Below are positions 21,292 to 33,686 of a stretch of DNA of 41,810 nucleotides, in pieces. How positions within the stretch are numbered: the stretch's first letter is position 1; each line of letters starts with the position of its first letter. A program made the position numbers and the translations under genes. Origin of the DNA: a bacterium (GTDB lineage Bacteria > Patescibacteriota > Microgenomatia > UBA1406 > GWC2-37-13); contig JAUSJK010000083.1 in the NCBI GenBank assembly GCA_030647255.1, positions 1 through 41,810 on the forward strand, read 5' to 3'. The notes beneath the pieces are model-generated. The model did no database searches. It was given only the letters and a program-made list of their open reading frames with translations, and was not told the DNA's origin.

Positions 21292-21723
21292 TTATACGGA
21301 AAGATACGCATGTACAAAGTCTCGGGGAGAAATGATGATGAGTGGTTTTGCGAATTCTCTTACTTTTGGTTTCATAAAATCACTGACATCGAGACTAATA
21401 AGGTGGGTAGCCTTGCTTTTTATAGCAGCCGCCAAAATCGGGGCGTCTTTGGTATTAATAACTTTTTCGCAGAGGGCAATTTCTTCTCTGGTTGGTTCTT
21501 CGATGATATGAAAAGGAACTTGAAGGAGTAAAAAATTTAACCGTTGTTTCCCAATCTGATCCAGCTTGGAAGATACATTTTTCTTTAATTCGTTAATAAC
21601 GTAATCTGAGATAGAGCCTTTTATTTTACCTTTCTTACAAAATTGTAATACACGAGCAGATGAGCCTGACTTTGAATTTACTGCAGAAAAAAGAACTGAA
21701 GTATCAATAAATACGTGTTTCAT
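21292..21723 (-). CDS. PIN-domain ribonuclease toxin (VapC-like), partner of AbrB-type antitoxin
   Basis: 143 residues. The PIN fold begins MKHVFIDTSVLFSAVNSKSG (first catalytic Asp at residue 7), then SDYVINELKKNV (acidic residue), and the later TKDAPILAAAIKSKATHLIS with LDVSDF supplies the remaining acidic cluster. PIN toxins cut RNA using metal bound by these acids. It overlaps the upstream antitoxin gene by 4 bp, standard for a translationally coupled pair. Confidence 0.85.
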   Translation of the reverse strand: MKHVFIDTSVLFSAVNSKSGSSARVLQFCKKGKIKGSISDYVINELKKNVSSKLDQIGKQRLNFLLLQVPFHIIEEPTREEIALCEKVINTKDAPILAAAIKSKATHLISLDVSDFMKPKVREFAKPLIIISPRDFVHAYLSV

Positions 21724-26489: not shown

Positions 26490-26744
26490 ATGGTACGAAC
26501 TCAAATCTATCTTCCAGAAGAGCAGTATAGAGAGTTAATTCAAATAGCCCGCAGGCAGGATAAGCCAATGGCGGAAATCATCCGGACGTATATTAAGATT
26601 GGTTTAAAAAAAGAGGAAACGGTTGATAAATCCGGAAGAGAAATAATGAAGGCTCTTTCTACGCTTAAAATAAAAGGTGGACCAAGAGATCTTTCTACCA
26701 ATTTGGACCATTATTTATATGGTGGTCCAAAGAAGAAAAAATGA
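26490..26744 (+). CDS. Ribbon-helix-helix antitoxin
   Basis: 84 residues. The N-terminus VRTQIYLPEEQYRELIQIAR followed by RQDKPMAEIIRTYIKIGLKK is a textbook RHH fold that binds DNA as a dimer. The C-terminal tail, ending YLYGGPKKKK, would wrap the toxin. The promoter carries a perfect inverted repeat suited to an RHH dimer. The stop overlaps the PIN toxin start by 4 bp. Confidence 0.85.
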   Translation: MVRTQIYLPEEQYRELIQIARRQDKPMAEIIRTYIKIGLKKEETVDKSGREIMKALSTLKIKGGPRDLSTNLDHYLYGGPKKKK

Positions 26745-27157
26745 ACAGTCAGCTAGTTTTCATAGATTCAGATGCCTTTATAGGACTGATCAAGGAAGAT
26801 GACGCTCATTACTCACAAACTCAACGTAGCTTTTCTCGGCTATATAAGGAAAAATACGAATATATAACTTCCAATTACGTCTTTTCAGAAGTTATTACCG
26901 TTTTAAGTTTAAGAGTAGGACGGGAAGGAGCAATAAAGTTTATTGATACGATTAAAACTCCATTGAGTGAATACCGGGTAGTTTGGATAAACGAAGAAAT
27001 AGAAGAAAAGGCAATAGAAATTTACAAGAAACAGACATCGAAAAACGTTAGTTTTGTTGATTGTACAAATATGGCTCTTATGGAACTTCACAATATACCT
27101 CTTATCTTTAGCTTTGATCGTATTTATAGAAAAAATGGGTATAAGATGACAAAATAG
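26741..27157 (+). CDS. PIN-domain ribonuclease toxin, partner of RHH antitoxin
   Basis: 138 residues. LVFIDSDAFIGLIKEDDAHY supplies the first acidic residues, SNYVFSEVITVLSLRVGREG the second (Glu), and VSFVDCTNMALMELHNIPLI plus FSFDRIYRKNG the last, giving the full PIN metal site. Expected to cut RNA. It starts inside the antitoxin stop region, so translation is coupled. Confidence 0.87.
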   Translation: MNSQLVFIDSDAFIGLIKEDDAHYSQTQRSFSRLYKEKYEYITSNYVFSEVITVLSLRVGREGAIKFIDTIKTPLSEYRVVWINEEIEEKAIEIYKKQTSKNVSFVDCTNMALMELHNIPLIFSFDRIYRKNGYKMTK

Positions 27158-27873: not shown

Positions 27874-28227
27874 ATGAACAAAAAACTATATGTAGGTAAT
27901 CTTTTATACGAAACAACAGATGATGAATTAAAAGTACTTTTCGCACAAGCCGGAGGCGTGGTTTCTGCATCTGTTATCAGATTTCATGACACAGGCAGAT
28001 CGAAAGGATTTGCTTTTGTCGAAATGGATACAGAAGAAGCCGCCCAAAAAGCAATCGATATGTTCAACGGTCAAGATAACAAAGGAAGAAAGCTCGTTGT
28101 GTCAGAGGCTCGCCCTCCAGCACCACGAACCAATTCTTTTGGATCAAGACCTCCAAGAAGAAGTTTTAATCGTGACGATAATCGTGATGAAAATCGCGAT
28201 GATAATCGTGACGATAGCGGAATGTAA
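27874..28227 (+). CDS. RRM-domain RNA-binding protein
   Basis: 117 residues. One RRM: RNP2 LYVGNL at residues 5-10 and RNP1 RSKGFAFVEM at 42-51, with the full beta-alpha-beta layout to about residue 80. The tail is Arg/Asp-rich with NRDDNRDE-type repeats, similar to glycine- or arginine-rich bacterial Rbp proteins induced by cold. It would bind single-stranded RNA and may act as an RNA chaperone. It has a real Shine-Dalgarno sequence and a long leader, unlike its neighbours. A stem-loop terminator follows the stop. Confidence 0.92.
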   Translation: MNKKLYVGNLLYETTDDELKVLFAQAGGVVSASVIRFHDTGRSKGFAFVEMDTEEAAQKAIDMFNGQDNKGRKLVVSEARPPAPRTNSFGSRPPRRSFNRDDNRDENRDDNRDDSGM

Positions 28228-28299: not shown

Positions 28300-28809
28300 C
28301 TAATAGTGAGTCATGACAAGATCGGACGGTTGCGCGAGCACTTTGCCGAAGATTGTTTGATCTATTCCAAAATAAGAACTTTTTCTAAAGCCCTCATCTT
28401 CTAACCCTACTTTTTTATAAAATGACACTGCCTCAGGTTGAGCGGCCACTTCCGCTTTATGACAGCCGAGGAGTTTAGCATGTTCGAGCCACTTATGAAT
28501 AAGGAGTGTACCTACACCTTTACCTCTTTGTTTTTCGGTGACTCCGAGCCAGCGACAGAGACTGACTCCGCCGTATGGTTCATCGACGATGGCAAATCCT
28601 ACAATTACAGTATCTACGCTGGCAACAAATATAGTTTTAAGATTGTGATCAAGCCAATACTCAAAGGCAGATCGAGTGTATACCTTTTCGAGAAGATATT
28701 GCTGAACGGCAGGAGTATAGCCCGGGAAATCATGGTGCAAAAGATGAGAAAATAATCCATAGAACTCATCCAGTCGATCTTGTTTCAGTTCTTTAATCTG
28801 TATTTCCAT
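28300..28809 (-). CDS. GNAT-family N-acetyltransferase
   Basis: 169 residues. The acetyl-CoA motif A appears as LCRWLGVTEKQRGKGVGTLL (Q-R-G-K-G-V-G pyrophosphate loop), preceded by the strand TVIVGFAIVDE and followed by AEVAAQPEAVSFYKKVGLED, the typical motif B ending. It would transfer an acetyl group from acetyl-CoA to an amine; the substrate is not deducible. It is convergent with the RRM gene and divergent from the CoA-biosynthesis fusion, with starts only 29 bp apart. Confidence 0.85.
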   Translation of the reverse strand: MEIQIKELKQDRLDEFYGLFSHLLHHDFPGYTPAVQQYLLEKVYTRSAFEYWLDHNLKTIFVASVDTVIVGFAIVDEPYGGVSLCRWLGVTEKQRGKGVGTLLIHKWLEHAKLLGCHKAEVAAQPEAVSFYKKVGLEDEGFRKSSYFGIDQTIFGKVLAQPSDLVMTHY

Positions 28810-28826: not shown

Positions 28827-28838
28827 ATGAAACTACAT

Positions 28839-29867
28839 ATGAGCTACCGATTTCATCATGGCACTGTTGCCGGCACGTTTGATCATCTGCACGCCGGGCA
28901 TAAGAAAATTATTGACACAGCTTTTAGCCAGAGCGAGATTGTCTCTGTGGGAATAGCCGATAGCTCCTTTGCTCATAAGGAATTTGTTTCGCAAATTCTG
29001 TCGTATGATGAAAGAAAAAAGGAAGTCGAGGCGTATCTTGTTCACAAAAATTATATGAAAAGAGCCCGACTTTTCAAGCTAACTGATATTTATGGCAGTG
29101 CCAAAGATGACACAACGCTACAGGCTTTATTTGTGACCCGTGAAACATATCAAAATAGTCTGAAAGTAAATCAACTGCGCAAAAAAAATGGTCTTTCCAG
29201 CCTCAAATTGATTGTCATACCTTTCATGAAAAGCCATGATAGGAAGATTATTCGCTCTACACGAATAAGAAGAGGAGAGATAGATAGGGAAGGATATCTG
29301 TTTAAAAATATATTTAAAAAAAATATTTTACATCTCCCCGAAGGAAAAAGAGAGTCGTTGAGAGTGCCCATTGGCAAAGTATTTACGGGTAAAGAAGAGA
29401 ATAAAAAGGAAGTTGCCCGCACGGTGGCTCAGTATATTCTCAGACTAAAACCAAGTTTCATCATCTCCGTCGGAGATATTGTTACACTCTTTCTTCAAGA
29501 TGAGGGTATCGTTCCCCCGATTGCGATAGTCGATTTTAAAACACAGAGAAAGTCTTTGAGTAAGGAAGAAAGAAGTCAACTGTCGGCGCCGTTTGGTGAA
29601 AGACGGGCATACAGAAATAAAGCCGGCACTATTTCGGGGAAAATGGCGAATATATTTATAACGAACGTTCATAAATACTTCAAGTTACATGTATCATCTC
29701 AGATTAAAATACAAGGCGAAGAAGATTTGTTGGCTCTTCCCGCGATTTTACTCGCCCCTCTTGGGTCAGTCGTTGTCTACGGACAGAAGGATTTGGGAGT
29801 AGTGGTCGTCGAAGTGACGGAGGAGAAAAAGGAAGAAGTAAGAAAGTTGGTTGAGAAGTTTGAATAA
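28839..29867 (+). CDS. Fusion: archaeal-type phosphopantetheine adenylyltransferase plus GTP-dependent dephospho-CoA kinase (DUF359)
   Basis: 342 residues. Domain 1 (1-155) is a nucleotidyltransferase with GTVAGTFDHLHAGHKKIIDT (HAGH at 18-21) and a late RSTRIRRGEI corresponding to the second active-site motif; it resembles the archaeal/eukaryotic PPAT group. Domain 2 (about 168-342) matches the archaeal DUF359 family: LRVPIGKVFTG, PSFIISVGDIVTLFL, PPIAIVDFKTQR and the strongly conserved EEDLLALPAILLAPLGSVVV plus YGQKDLGVVVVEVTEEKK. DUF359 proteins are GTP-dependent dephospho-CoA kinases in archaea. Together the two would catalyse the last two steps of CoA synthesis. No CoaD/CoaE-type gene is seen here. 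It lies 14 bp before leuS. High confidence for domain 2, good for domain 1. Confidence 0.85.
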   Translation: MSYRFHHGTVAGTFDHLHAGHKKIIDTAFSQSEIVSVGIADSSFAHKEFVSQILSYDERKKEVEAYLVHKNYMKRARLFKLTDIYGSAKDDTTLQALFVTRETYQNSLKVNQLRKKNGLSSLKLIVIPFMKSHDRKIIRSTRIRRGEIDREGYLFKNIFKKNILHLPEGKRESLRVPIGKVFTGKEENKKEVARTVAQYILRLKPSFIISVGDIVTLFLQDEGIVPPIAIVDFKTQRKSLSKEERSQLSAPFGERRAYRNKAGTISGKMANIFITNVHKYFKLHVSSQIKIQGEEDLLALPAILLAPLGSVVVYGQKDLGVVVVEVTEEKKEEVRKLVEKFE

Positions 29868-29875
29868 TGTATAAT
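29847..29875 (+). promoter_or_regulatory. Promoter of leaderless leuS
   Basis: TTGGTT (29847-29852), a 17-nt spacer, perfect TATAAT (29870-29875), then 6 nt to the ATG at 29882. It overlaps the stop of the upstream fusion gene. Confidence 0.65.
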
Positions 29876-29881
29876 ACTTTC

Positions 29882-32323
29882 ATGAAAAAGTATCTTCCCA
29901 AAGAAATTGAGTCGAAATGGCAAAAGACATGGGAGGAAGAGGAGTTATACAGTTTTGACGTCAATGATAAAACTTCGCGCGGTAAATATTATACGCTCGT
30001 CGAACTTCCATACCCTTCAGGCGATTTACACATCGGTCATTGGTTTTCTTTTGTTACGCCCGATATTCTTTCCCGGTTTAAAAGAATGAGTGGAAACAAC
30101 GTATTTTTTCCCCATGGATTTGACGCGTTTGGTCTTCCGGCCGAAAATGCCGCCATCAAAAGAAAAATTCACCCTCAGGACTGGACGATGAAAAATATCG
30201 AGACGATGACGAATCAGTTTAAAACGATGGGGACGATGATTGACTGGAATTATGTGACGATTACGTGCTTGCCCGAGTACTATAGATGGAATCAATGGAT
30301 ATTTTTGAAAATGTACGAAAAAGGACTCGCCTACAGAGGAAAAACGCTTTCCAACTGGTGCGAGACGGACCAGACGGTGCTTGCGAACGAAAATATTGAA
30401 AATGGTAAGTGTTGGCGATGTGGAAATGAAGTTGTCCAAAAAGAAGTCGCACAATGGTTTCTTAAGATTACAGAGTACGCGGATAGACTAATCTGGCCCG
30501 AGAACCCAGGGGCTAGCCCTGAGCGGAGCCGAAGGGTGGATTGGCCGATGTCCGTGAGAGTGGGACAGAATAATTGGATAGGAAAAAAAGCGGGAATAAA
30601 TATTACCTATAAAATAAAAGGCACGAACGAAACTATTACGTGTTTTACAACTCGACCTGATACAAACTTTGGTGCCACATTTATTGTTCTGGCTCCCGAA
30701 CAGACATTTGTAAAAAGTATTCTCAATAAAAACTCAGAAGTAAAAGCATATGTAGAAAAGGCAGAAAAGAAGTCGGAGTTAGATCGCATGGCTGAAGGAA
30801 GAAAAAAGACAGGAGTGTTTACAGGATATTATGCCATTAATAATCTTAACGGACGTGAGATGTCAATCTGGGTTTCTGATTTTGTCCTCGCCGGATTTGG
30901 GACGGGGGCGGTAGTCGGAGTACCAGGGCATGACCTACGGGATTTTGAATTTGCCACACAATTTGGTATCGACATTATCCGGGTAGTCGTGGGAAAAGAC
31001 GGAGATACTTCAGCTATAACTGATAAAAAGCAAGTCCAAGAAAAAGAAGGAACAATGATCAACTCCGATTTCTTGAATGATCTTGATATCCATGAGGCAA
31101 CAAAAAAAGTGATGGAGTATATAGAAAAAAAAGGTTGGGGGAAAAAGACGGTGACGTATCATATCCGTGATTGGTCCATTTCACGACAGAGATATTGGGG
31201 GACACCTGTACCCATGATTCATTGTCAAAAGTGTGGTATTGTACCCGTTCCTGAAAAAGATCTGCCTATAGAGTTGCCCTACGAAGTAGACTTTACTCCC
31301 AAAGGCAAACCGCCACTTGCTTCGAATGAAGAGTGGGTAAAAACAACCTGTCCAAAATGTTCTGGACCCGCGACACGCGATGCTGAGACTCTGGATACAT
31401 TTTTTGACTCTTCATGGTATTTTTATCGTTATGTTAATCCTGGATATACTAATGGACCATTTGATACACAAAAAGTAAAGAAATTACTGCCTGTCGATAT
31501 TTATTTCGGCGGAGCAGAGCATACGTTAGGTCACACGTTGTACGCCCGTTTCTTCACGAAGTTTTTCAAAGACCTTGGGCTGATCGACTTTGAAGAATTT
31601 GCCTCCAAACGTATTCAACATGGAGTGGTTCTAGGACCCGATGGGAATCGTATGAGTAAGTCAAAGGGCAACGTCGTCAATCCCGACGACATGGTCTCTC
31701 AGTACGGAGCAGACGTGGTGCGTATGTACCTTTGTTTTATGATGCCGTATGAAGCGATCGGTCCGTGGTCGACGGAAGCGATTGAAGGCATGTACCGGTT
31801 CATCAACCGCGTCTGGTATCTATATCAAAATATAGATAAAAGTATAAAACCAGATAAAAAAGACCTCTTTTTTATGCACAAAACTATTAAAAAAGTTGAA
31901 CAGGATATACCGGAAGTCAAGACAAACACGGCTATTGCCGGCATGATGGAGTGGTTGAATTACTTATCCCGGAAAGAAAAAATAAGCGAAGAAGAATATA
32001 AAACATTCCTTACTATACTGGCACCTTTTGCTCCCCATATGACGGAGGAACTCTGGAGAAGCGAGATGAAAGAAAAAGAATCGATCCATCTTCAGCCGTG
32101 GCCACAGGTAGAAGAAAAGTATTTGACAGAAGATGAGGTAAATATCCCCGTACAAGTAAATGGAAAAGTGAGAGGAGTAATAACGGTTTCATCTGCCGAT
32201 TTATCACAAGACACGGTCGTGAAAAAAGCAACTGAAGATGAAAAAGTGAAAAAATATCTAGAAGGCAAAGACTTCAAAGTCGTCTATGTGCAAGGAAAAA
32301 TATTAAACTTGATTGTAAAATAA
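29882..32323 (+). CDS. leuS: Leucyl-tRNA synthetase with repeat-derived insert
   Basis: 813 residues from the ATG at 29882, chosen by the TATAAT 6 nt upstream and the normal N-terminus MKKYLPKEIESKWQKTWEEE. Motifs: YPSGDLHIGH at 44-53, Zn-type Cys pairs (CWRCGN; CQKC, CPKC), CP1 editing domain TTRPDTNFGATF and GTGAVVGVPGHDLRDFEFA, and RMSKSKGNVVNPDDM (KMSKS loop). C-terminal PVQVNGKVRG is typical. At about residues 208-220 the segment ENPGASPERSRRVDW is extra relative to the usual family alignment. It is encoded by DNA matching the loop of the two-hairpin repeats, so it is probably a repeat insertion before the editing domain. The frame is intact. Confidence 0.96.
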   Translation: MKKYLPKEIESKWQKTWEEEELYSFDVNDKTSRGKYYTLVELPYPSGDLHIGHWFSFVTPDILSRFKRMSGNNVFFPHGFDAFGLPAENAAIKRKIHPQDWTMKNIETMTNQFKTMGTMIDWNYVTITCLPEYYRWNQWIFLKMYEKGLAYRGKTLSNWCETDQTVLANENIENGKCWRCGNEVVQKEVAQWFLKITEYADRLIWPENPGASPERSRRVDWPMSVRVGQNNWIGKKAGINITYKIKGTNETITCFTTRPDTNFGATFIVLAPEQTFVKSILNKNSEVKAYVEKAEKKSELDRMAEGRKKTGVFTGYYAINNLNGREMSIWVSDFVLAGFGTGAVVGVPGHDLRDFEFATQFGIDIIRVVVGKDGDTSAITDKKQVQEKEGTMINSDFLNDLDIHEATKKVMEYIEKKGWGKKTVTYHIRDWSISRQRYWGTPVPMIHCQKCGIVPVPEKDLPIELPYEVDFTPKGKPPLASNEEWVKTTCPKCSGPATRDAETLDTFFDSSWYFYRYVNPGYTNGPFDTQKVKKLLPVDIYFGGAEHTLGHTLYARFFTKFFKDLGLIDFEEFASKRIQHGVVLGPDGNRMSKSKGNVVNPDDMVSQYGADVVRMYLCFMMPYEAIGPWSTEAIEGMYRFINRVWYLYQNIDKSIKPDKKDLFFMHKTIKKVEQDIPEVKTNTAIAGMMEWLNYLSRKEKISEEEYKTFLTILAPFAPHMTEELWRSEMKEKESIHLQPWPQVEEKYLTEDEVNIPVQVNGKVRGVITVSSADLSQDTVVKKATEDEKVKKYLEGKDFKVVYVQGKILNLIVK
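30502..30541. repeat. Repeat-derived segment inside leuS
   Basis: Contains CCTGAGCGGAGCCGAAGG, a close match to CCTGAGCGAAGTCGAAGG in intergenic copy 8, flanked by an AGGGGCTAGCCCT stem. It encodes NPGASPERSRRV. Confidence 0.8.
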
Positions 32324-32386: not shown

Positions 32387-33010
32387 TTACTTCTCTACGA
32401 CTTTACAATCTTCATCAATGTCGAGAAGAATAAGCTCATCGTTATCTTGTTTTTCATGGGGCATAATTTCTCCAATGGTAGCGTATGTTAAGTATTCTAC
32501 GATATATCTGTTAAAAATAGAGTGTCCAATGAGAAGTACTTTACTTTTGTAAGGCAATTTCTTCATTTCTTCGCCAAAACTTATTACTCTTTTTCCTACT
32601 GACTCCATTGTTTCTTCCTGCGGAAATTTGCCGGTCAACAAAGATTTATTAGTACCTCTAAAGTATAGATGGTGTGACAATCTACCTGGAAGAATAAGTC
32701 CTAGTTCTCGTTCGATGTCCTCTTTATTCTTGCCAATAAGGTCTGTGTGGTATCTTTCGTTCAATCTATTATCTATTTTTACGTTCGGCATATTTTTATA
32801 TTGAGGAAAGATAAGTGCGAGTGTTTCGATAGTGCGAAGAGTGTTACTGGAAAAAATAATGTCGAGCGCCATATTGTTTTCAATAAAATGTTTCTTCCAG
32901 CGTAAAGCCTGTTCTTTCCCTTTTTGAGTTAAATGACTTGAGTCAGGAGCTTGAATCCGTTTTTCCAGATTCCAATTAGTCTCCCCATGGCGGATAAGAT
33001 AGACTTTCAT
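32387..33010 (-). CDS. Histidine phosphatase family protein (phosphoglycerate mutase-like)
   Basis: 207 residues. The catalytic motif is MKVYLIRHGETNWNLEKRIQ with RHGE at 7-10; the second His is in VLLIGHSIFNRYI. Arg and Glu of the phosphate pocket are suggested by SSNTLRTIETLALIF and RLNERYHTDLIG. The fold covers phosphoglycerate mutases, cobalamin phosphatases and others, so the substrate is unknown. Its start overlaps the PIN toxin stop by 4 bp, making it the third gene of an overlapping HTH-PIN-phosphatase operon. Confidence 0.85.
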   Translation of the reverse strand: MKVYLIRHGETNWNLEKRIQAPDSSHLTQKGKEQALRWKKHFIENNMALDIIFSSNTLRTIETLALIFPQYKNMPNVKIDNRLNERYHTDLIGKNKEDIERELGLILPGRLSHHLYFRGTNKSLLTGKFPQEETMESVGKRVISFGEEMKKLPYKSKVLLIGHSIFNRYIVEYLTYATIGEIMPHEKQDNDELILLDIDEDCKVVEK

Positions 33011-33423
33011 AAGCTACGGACATACTGAAGAAATAATGCTGGAGTGAGAATAACAATCTTGAAATCTTCTTTTATTTTATTCCTATTATAATCTTTGAGA
33101 TTGTAAGTTATTAAAAAGTGACTTTTTGAGGAGACTGCCCCGGCTACAATATGAGAATCGTCCTCATCAAACACATAGGTCTTAAAATCTCTTTTGATCG
33201 TTGGTACAGAATCGGAAAGTTTTATAGTTTTACAGTTCTTTGTCACAGAGTCAATATTATTTTTACCAATAGAAAGCCTCTTAGCTACTATGTGGATTTC
33301 TTTAATAGATATGGTGGAAATGTATTTTTCAACTTTTTTTTCTGATAAAAGAATATGGGCTGCTCCTTTTGAGGAAATAGTAGAAGATATAACTACGTCA
33401 GTGTCAAAAAAAACTTTGATCAT
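33007..33423 (-). CDS. PIN-domain protein, partner of HTH_17-type antitoxin
   Basis: 138 residues. IKVFFDTDVVISSTISSKGA gives the first Asp residues (7, 9), STISIKEIHIVAKRLS the Glu, and DEDDSHIVAGAVSSKSHFLI plus TYNLKDYN the last acids, a complete PIN site. Expected ribonuclease activity. It overlaps the upstream HTH gene by 4 bp and the downstream phosphatase by 4 bp, implying tight coupling of all three. Confidence 0.82.
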   Translation of the reverse strand: MIKVFFDTDVVISSTISSKGAAHILLSEKKVEKYISTISIKEIHIVAKRLSIGKNNIDSVTKNCKTIKLSDSVPTIKRDFKTYVFDEDDSHIVAGAVSSKSHFLITYNLKDYNRNKIKEDFKIVILTPALFLQYVRSL

Positions 33424-33686
33424 GCATTTTTTCTTACTTTTTTGACTTCCTGGTGGATCTTATTGATAGTTTGTAAATCTTCCTGTTGGGCTTGATATAG
33501 ATCAAGATCAAGACCGCTAAATACAAATGAAAGAGAAGCTGGAGGAACTCTATATACTTTGCCTATTTTCTTGGCGATAATTTCCCCTTTTTTGATAAGC
33601 TCGTAGACAGTGTTTCTGGAAAGCTGTAAAATAGAGGCTACCTCGTCTGGTGTGTATGTTTTTGGATACGAAACTTGATTAAACAT
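33420..33686 (-). CDS. Excisionase/MerR-like HTH (HTH_17) antitoxin
   Basis: 88 residues. YTPDEVASILQLSRNTVYEL and IKKGEIIAKKIGKVYRVPPA form the excisionase-type winged HTH. The tail (QAQQEDLQTINKIHQEVKKV) is a helix likely to contact the PIN protein. Proteins of this type paired with PIN toxins act as antitoxin and autorepressor. The promoter is strong, with the ATG 6 nt from the -10. Confidence 0.82.
   Translation of the reverse strand: MFNQVSYPKTYTPDEVASILQLSRNTVYELIKKGEIIAKKIGKVYRVPPASLSFVFSGLDLDLYQAQQEDLQTINKIHQEVKKVRKNA

Follow-up and report, generated by a model that had tools for sequence, protein, structure and literature searches.

A PPAT–DUF359 fusion in a class of CPR bacteria, predicted to be an archaeal-type bifunctional CoA synthase in place of CoaD and CoaE

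A single reading frame that joins an archaeal-type phosphopantetheine adenylyltransferase (PPAT) to a DUF359 domain, the family of the archaeal dephospho-CoA kinase (DPCK), is confirmed in a CPR bacterium of the class Microgenomatia, and the known catalytic motifs are intact in both halves. The gene lies on a contig of 41,810 nucleotides (JAUSJK010000083.1, contig C85), analysed over its full length and hereafter called the window. The draft genome comprises 1.217 Mb in 90 contigs and is 93.6% complete, so that single gene absences could be gaps. What the analysis shows directly are the domains and their motifs, how the gene is distributed, that no alternative enzymes are detectable, and the tree pattern; from these we infer both activities, the use of GTP, salvage and transfer. 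Very probably, the protein is a bifunctional archaeal-type CoA synthase that replaces CoaD and CoaE, was acquired long ago and has been inherited mainly vertically, and it probably serves the salvage of late precursors. Its N-terminal domain would transfer AMP from ATP onto 4'-phosphopantetheine to give dephospho-CoA and PPi, and the C-terminal DUF359 domain would convert dephospho-CoA and GTP to CoA and GDP. By analogy with Thermococcus, GTP is probably the phosphate donor.

The fusion gene is complete (28827..29867, + strand). It starts at 28827 or 28839, ends with the stop codon TAA at 29865-29867, and carries both domains in one frame; read from 28839 to 29867, the uninterrupted frame yields 342 aa (P0001), or 346 aa if the ATG at 28827 is used. 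The domain scores of the protein are far from chance. In the N-terminal half, the PPAT domain (28854..29306, +; residues 6-156) scored 135.7 bits against the NCBIfam model of archaeal-type PPAT, NF001985 (PRK00777), which has a cut-off of 104, and the protein is a member of that family; with the bacterial CoaD model TIGR01510 (NCBIfam, cut-off 103.3) it reached only 18.3 bits and thus falls outside that family. The more general CTP_transf_like model of Pfam matched residues 11-145 (56.0 bits, cut-off 21). The nearest PDB entry by sequence was the Archaeoglobus fulgidus PPAT 3do8 (8.6e-22), which shares with this half the fold and the HxGH and STRIRRGE motifs, whereas archaeal PPAT is a standalone protein in Halobacteriota and is fused here. 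The HxGH nucleotidyltransferase motif is present as HAGH (residues 18-21; 28890..28901, +), with H18, G20 and H21 invariant in an alignment of 39 fusions, and the ISSTRIR-type PPAT motif as RSTRIRRGE (residues 139-147; 29253..29279, +), with S140, R144 and G146 kept in at least 90% of them. The N-terminal half, which a preliminary description had called PPAT-like, is a putative archaeal-type phosphopantetheine adenylyltransferase.

The C-terminal half (29328..29864, +; residues 164-342) carries the DUF359/archaeal dephospho-CoA kinase domain. The Pfam model PF04019 (DUF359) matched residues 215-342 over its whole length (profile 1-126 of 126) with 106.2 bits against a cut-off of 25, and the motifs SVGD, VDFKTQR and EEDLLALPAILLAPLGSV, on which the DUF359 assignment had first been made, were all three found in the protein exactly as quoted. 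The matches to the NCBIfam models NF041125 and NF002248 start at residue 164. For NF041125, the equivalog model of the Thermococcales GTP-dependent DPCK, the score was 84.8 bits against a cut-off of 300, as expected for a distant member, and the fusion is therefore not filed under it. Among PDB entries searched by sequence, the archaeal GTP-dependent DPCK 8jvc was matched at 8.4e-18, and no match to the P-loop domain of bacterial and eukaryotic CoaE (PF01121, Pfam) was found in the fusion protein. Alignment to 8jvc equated Asp213 of SVGD (29475..29477, +) with the catalytic Asp48 of the T. kodakarensis DPCK, Asp232 of VDFKTQR (29532..29534, +) with the catalytic Asp67, and Asp296 of GEEDL (29724..29726, +) with the conserved Asp125. 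All three aspartates are invariant in the alignment of 39 fusions, as are H18 and H21 in the PPAT half. Asp48, Asp67 and Asp125 are the residues that were mutated in T. kodakarensis, where D48A and D67A dramatically cut growth (PMC6650551).

An AlphaFold2 model of the fusion, built with the alignment of 39 fusions, had a mean pLDDT of 94.3 and a pTM of 0.90, values that agree with two domains that are each well folded and hold a defined position relative to each other. When the model was compared with the PDB by Foldseek, archaeal DPCK (8jvc/8jvg) ranked first, with TMt of 0.82-0.88 and E down to 2.5e-15, and archaeal PPAT (3do8) second, with TMt of 0.79-0.83 and above bacterial CoaD. Identity to the characterised archaeal enzymes in the structural alignments was about 28-33%. 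TK1697 and the archaeal DPCK structures 8jvc/8jvf/8jvg have the same fold as the C-terminal half (TMt 0.82-0.88) and share its three conserved aspartates, but TK1697 is a standalone archaeal protein (PMC6650551), and here the domain is joined to PPAT in a bacterium.

A study of 2019 identified the archaeal DPCK through gene fusions: in many uncultured archaea, PPAT is joined to arCOG04076, a family found in nearly all archaea, and TK1697 of T. kodakarensis was shown to have GTP-dependent DPCK activity (PMC6650551). PSI-BLAST retrieved arCOG04076 members only in that study. DUF359 was also singled out as the one member of the pan-archaeal core that was still uncharacterised, and domain fusions were taken to point to a role in CoA synthesis (PMC6393860). 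Archaeal-type enzymes in CPR bacteria are a known theme (PMC7304191, PMC5370408). In the open literature, with subscription papers and preprints outside the scope of the search, no report of DUF359 or DPCK in CPR bacteria was found, and database annotations may exist. The fusions of uncultured archaea (e.g. AIF21550.1, PMC6650551) hold the same two families in one protein, whereas the host here is a bacterium; the likeness is drawn at the level of domain families. The eukaryotic CoA synthase (PPAT-DPCK) likewise performs the last two steps with one protein and has PPAT ahead of the kinase, but its kinase is of the P-loop CoaE type and unrelated to DUF359 (PMC6650551). The kinase half of the present protein is DUF359, which sets it apart from that family and agrees with the unrelatedness of the two kinases noted at the outset.

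The fusion is not peculiar to one genome, and its inheritance appears largely vertical. DUF359 was present in 53 of the 147 genomes of the class, the same two-domain frame recurring in these 53, and in 11 of the 12 genomes sampled from the family of the window. Outside the class, it was found in one genome (G007, whose own class consists of two genomes only) among about 350 sampled Patescibacteria, and bacterial control genomes gave no DUF359 match. At every CPR locus examined, PPAT or its C-terminal end precedes DUF359 in the same frame; at three of these loci, in G438, G380 and G430, a contig end truncates the gene, and a separate pair of PPAT and DPCK was found in no CPR genome examined. 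A seemingly standalone DUF359 in G430 was rejected, as the contig ends inside the gene, the fragment begins with the end of PPAT, and the N-terminal part lies on another contig. The fusion also occurs in the single-contig genomes G167, G199, G469 and G487, each of about 1 Mb. In Halobacteriota, DUF359 was detected in 104 of 120 genomes, nearly always as a standalone frame of about 165-250 aa accompanied by a separate archaeal-type PPAT. A scan of viral sequences for relatives returned short nucleotidyltransferase matches only; phage records held no relatives, and plasmid records haloarchaeal PPAT only.

Other fusions for the same steps were found in CPR bacteria. In the sister family f3, a single frame of 376-397 aa encodes both bacterial CoaD and CoaE (L057-L060, in G208, G344, G378 and G047), and a fifth CoaD-CoaE fusion occurs in another class (G281, L161:988-2145). 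The two that were scanned scored above the curated cut-offs for both TIGR01510 (155-156 bits) and TIGR00152 (90-100 bits). These proteins resemble the PPAT–DUF359 fusion in covering the same two steps in the same order in one frame, but they are composed of bacterial CoaD and CoaE, and their kinase half is not homologous to DUF359. In G490, a further member of f3, the archaeal-type fusion takes the place of CoaD-CoaE. A longer form of the archaeal-type fusion also exists: G451 encodes a three-domain protein of 486 aa in which NMN adenylyltransferase (NMNAT) is followed by PPAT and DPCK (L038:397-1854). Apparently G430 does so too, its gene being split over two contig ends (L152:2-901, -, and L153:1426-2034, -), and in G423 an NMNAT-like gene lies directly upstream and overlaps the fusion (L110:865-1407 and 1404-2519). 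No description of NMNAT and CoA synthesis joined in one chain was found.

The history of the gene was examined with trees in which Halobacteriota was the sole archaeal phylum included and the root was assumed. In the PPAT tree, from which NMNAT-like extra domains were left out because their presence led to distortion by long branches, 52 CPR fusions and 32 Halobacteriota sequences formed the two sides of one branch (100/97). The same split was recovered with 100/99 support in the concatenated tree and also in a quick tree of the DPCK half that carries no support values, and placement of the halves within ordinary bacterial families was not seen. Within the class, families f11 and f7 each formed one group in the concatenated tree, and f168 was broken only by an unassigned Gottesmanbacteria sequence. 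The family labels required 7 changes on this tree, compared with 35.9 in shuffles, with the deep CPR forks lacking resolution. The pattern fits one old acquisition followed by mainly vertical descent with many losses.

Inter-domain transfer and fusion had been proposed in the preliminary description. The archaeal type of both halves favours the transfer, and the gene would have reached the CPR class at an early time, with archaea or a lineage resembling them as the source, and then been passed on mainly vertically and lost many times. As to the fusion, because PPAT–DUF359 has already been reported in uncultured archaea (PMC6650551), joining within bacteria is no more likely than the transfer of a ready-fused gene, and the gene perhaps entered in the fused state. 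Construction inside bacteria is a possibility of lesser weight; here the ancestor of the CPR class would have taken up two separate archaeal genes and joined them independently of the archaeal fusions, with the same function as a result. It would suit the almost always standalone DUF359 of Halobacteriota and the readiness with which CPR bacteria fuse such genes, as in the CoaD-CoaE proteins of f3 and G281 and the NMNAT-PPAT-DPCK protein of G451, but donors with a ready-made fusion exist among many uncultured archaea (PMC6650551), and no CPR genome examined retains the two genes as a separate pair.

The replacement of CoaD and CoaE by the fusion is predicted from the other enzymes of the pathway. 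In the genome of the window, no match with E <= 1e-3 was found to CoaE, bacterial CoaD, CoaBC (PF04127) or type III pantothenate kinase (PanK). The fusion keeps its catalytic residues, and neither coaD nor coaE is detectable in the genome, in line with the original reading of one protein for both steps. Strong CoaE matches in the class were limited to four genomes, all of family f3 and none with DUF359, so that the 53 DUF359 genomes and the 4 strong-CoaE genomes overlap in none. In the phylum sample the overlap between 12 DUF359 and 22 strong-CoaE genomes was also zero, which with a chance probability of 0.48 is not significant alone. Weak CoaE matches in the DUF359-positive genomes G469, G474 and G490 were rejected, as the frame in G469 scored as uridine kinase and the others as P-loop kinase domains of a general kind. 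CoaBC was detected in 17 genomes of the class, 16 of which have DUF359; the Fisher test gave p = 1.9e-7 uncorrected for kinship, a value that is too optimistic because 11 of the 16 genomes come from one family.

In the organism studied here, CoaBC and type III PanK were not detectable, and 4'-phosphopantetheine or a later precursor would therefore have to come from outside or be recycled. The organism probably draws 4'-phosphopantetheine or a precursor of it from a host or by recycling. This suggestion is weakened by the incompleteness of the genome and by the scope of the search, which on the upstream side took in CoaBC and type III PanK (PF03309) only; type III PanK was found in none of the 147 genomes of the class, though 17 have CoaBC. 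The sixteen sampled relatives that combine DUF359 with CoaBC have kept the latter.

It is unlikely that one half is inactive or has changed its substrate, so that the protein would act, for example, as PPAT only or on another nucleotide or cofactor. The low identity of about 28-33% to characterised archaeal enzymes leaves some room for such a change, and the literature searched yielded no assay of a bacterial member; against it, 39 divergent fusions show little or no variation at the active sites of either half, no other CoaD or CoaE is detectable in the genome, and nearly all genomes with CoaBC, the maker of the substrate, have the fusion. Still less probable is an ancient vertical trait that was lost from most bacteria and involved no inter-domain transfer. 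The gene tree within the class does mostly follow bacterial families, but the single occurrence among about 350 Patescibacteria sampled outside it, the bacterial controls without a match and the otherwise nearly pan-archaeal family (PMC6650551, PMC6393860) speak against this reading.

The two-domain architecture is already known from archaea; of more interest are its fixation in a bacterial class, its alternation with CoaD-CoaE and the three-domain relatives. A DUF359 kinase, described as archaeal, apparently serves a class of bacteria as its only enzyme for the last step, which shows that even an essential part of central metabolism, supposed to be specific to one domain of life, can be exchanged between domains. 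That sister CPR families have two unrelated fusions for the same steps suggests a pressure to join the last two steps of CoA synthesis in tiny genomes. A likely annotation gap is also corrected, in that a search by CoaD and CoaE alone would lead to the conclusion that these CPR bacteria cannot complete CoA. We give even chances to a wider scenario in which the CPR class exchanged its last CoA steps for an archaeal GTP-dependent two-domain synthase while relatives made CoaD-CoaE, many members complete CoA from a late precursor that they import, and some extended the enzyme to three domains with NMN adenylyltransferase, joining NAD and CoA synthesis in one chain.

The surroundings of the gene are bacterial, as had been assumed for the host genome: contig frames resemble bacterial-type tyrS, trpS, leuS, nusG, rplK and rplA, as read from their translations, and the G+C content is even. 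The gene leuS (29867..32323, +) follows directly, its ATG overlapping the stop codon of the fusion (TAATG), and it lies beside or near the fusion in most of the genomes sampled from the same family, nine of them besides the present one (G423, G410, G478, G469, G400, G430, G451, G436 and G444). A binning or assembly artefact, that is, an archaeal contig or a chimera in a bacterial bin, might be suspected in a 90-contig draft with a gene of an otherwise archaeal family, but it is refuted for practical purposes by these bacterial-type neighbours, the even G+C, the recurrence beside leuS in independent genomes and the presence of the fusion in the four single-contig genomes. Named relatives with related loci are Patescibacteria, namely Levybacteria (L003) and Gottesmanbacteria (L004), both of which belong to Microgenomates/Microgenomatia; the Gottesmanbacteria contig L004 carries a fusion that matches the one in G429, a genome of the window's class. 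On the other side, a divergent gene (28300..28809, -) encodes a GNAT acetyltransferase (PF00583, 49.8 bits), which probably uses acetyl-CoA and also adjoins the fusion in three relatives. Just upstream of the fusion, at 27874-28227 of the window, the translation shows a short RNA-recognition-motif-like protein with a Gly/Arg/Asp-rich tail. Small genes for ribbon-helix-helix or DNA-binding-like proteins and PIN-type toxin-like proteins, paired or single, were likewise recognized from their translations at 26490-27157, 21292-21723 and 33007-33686.
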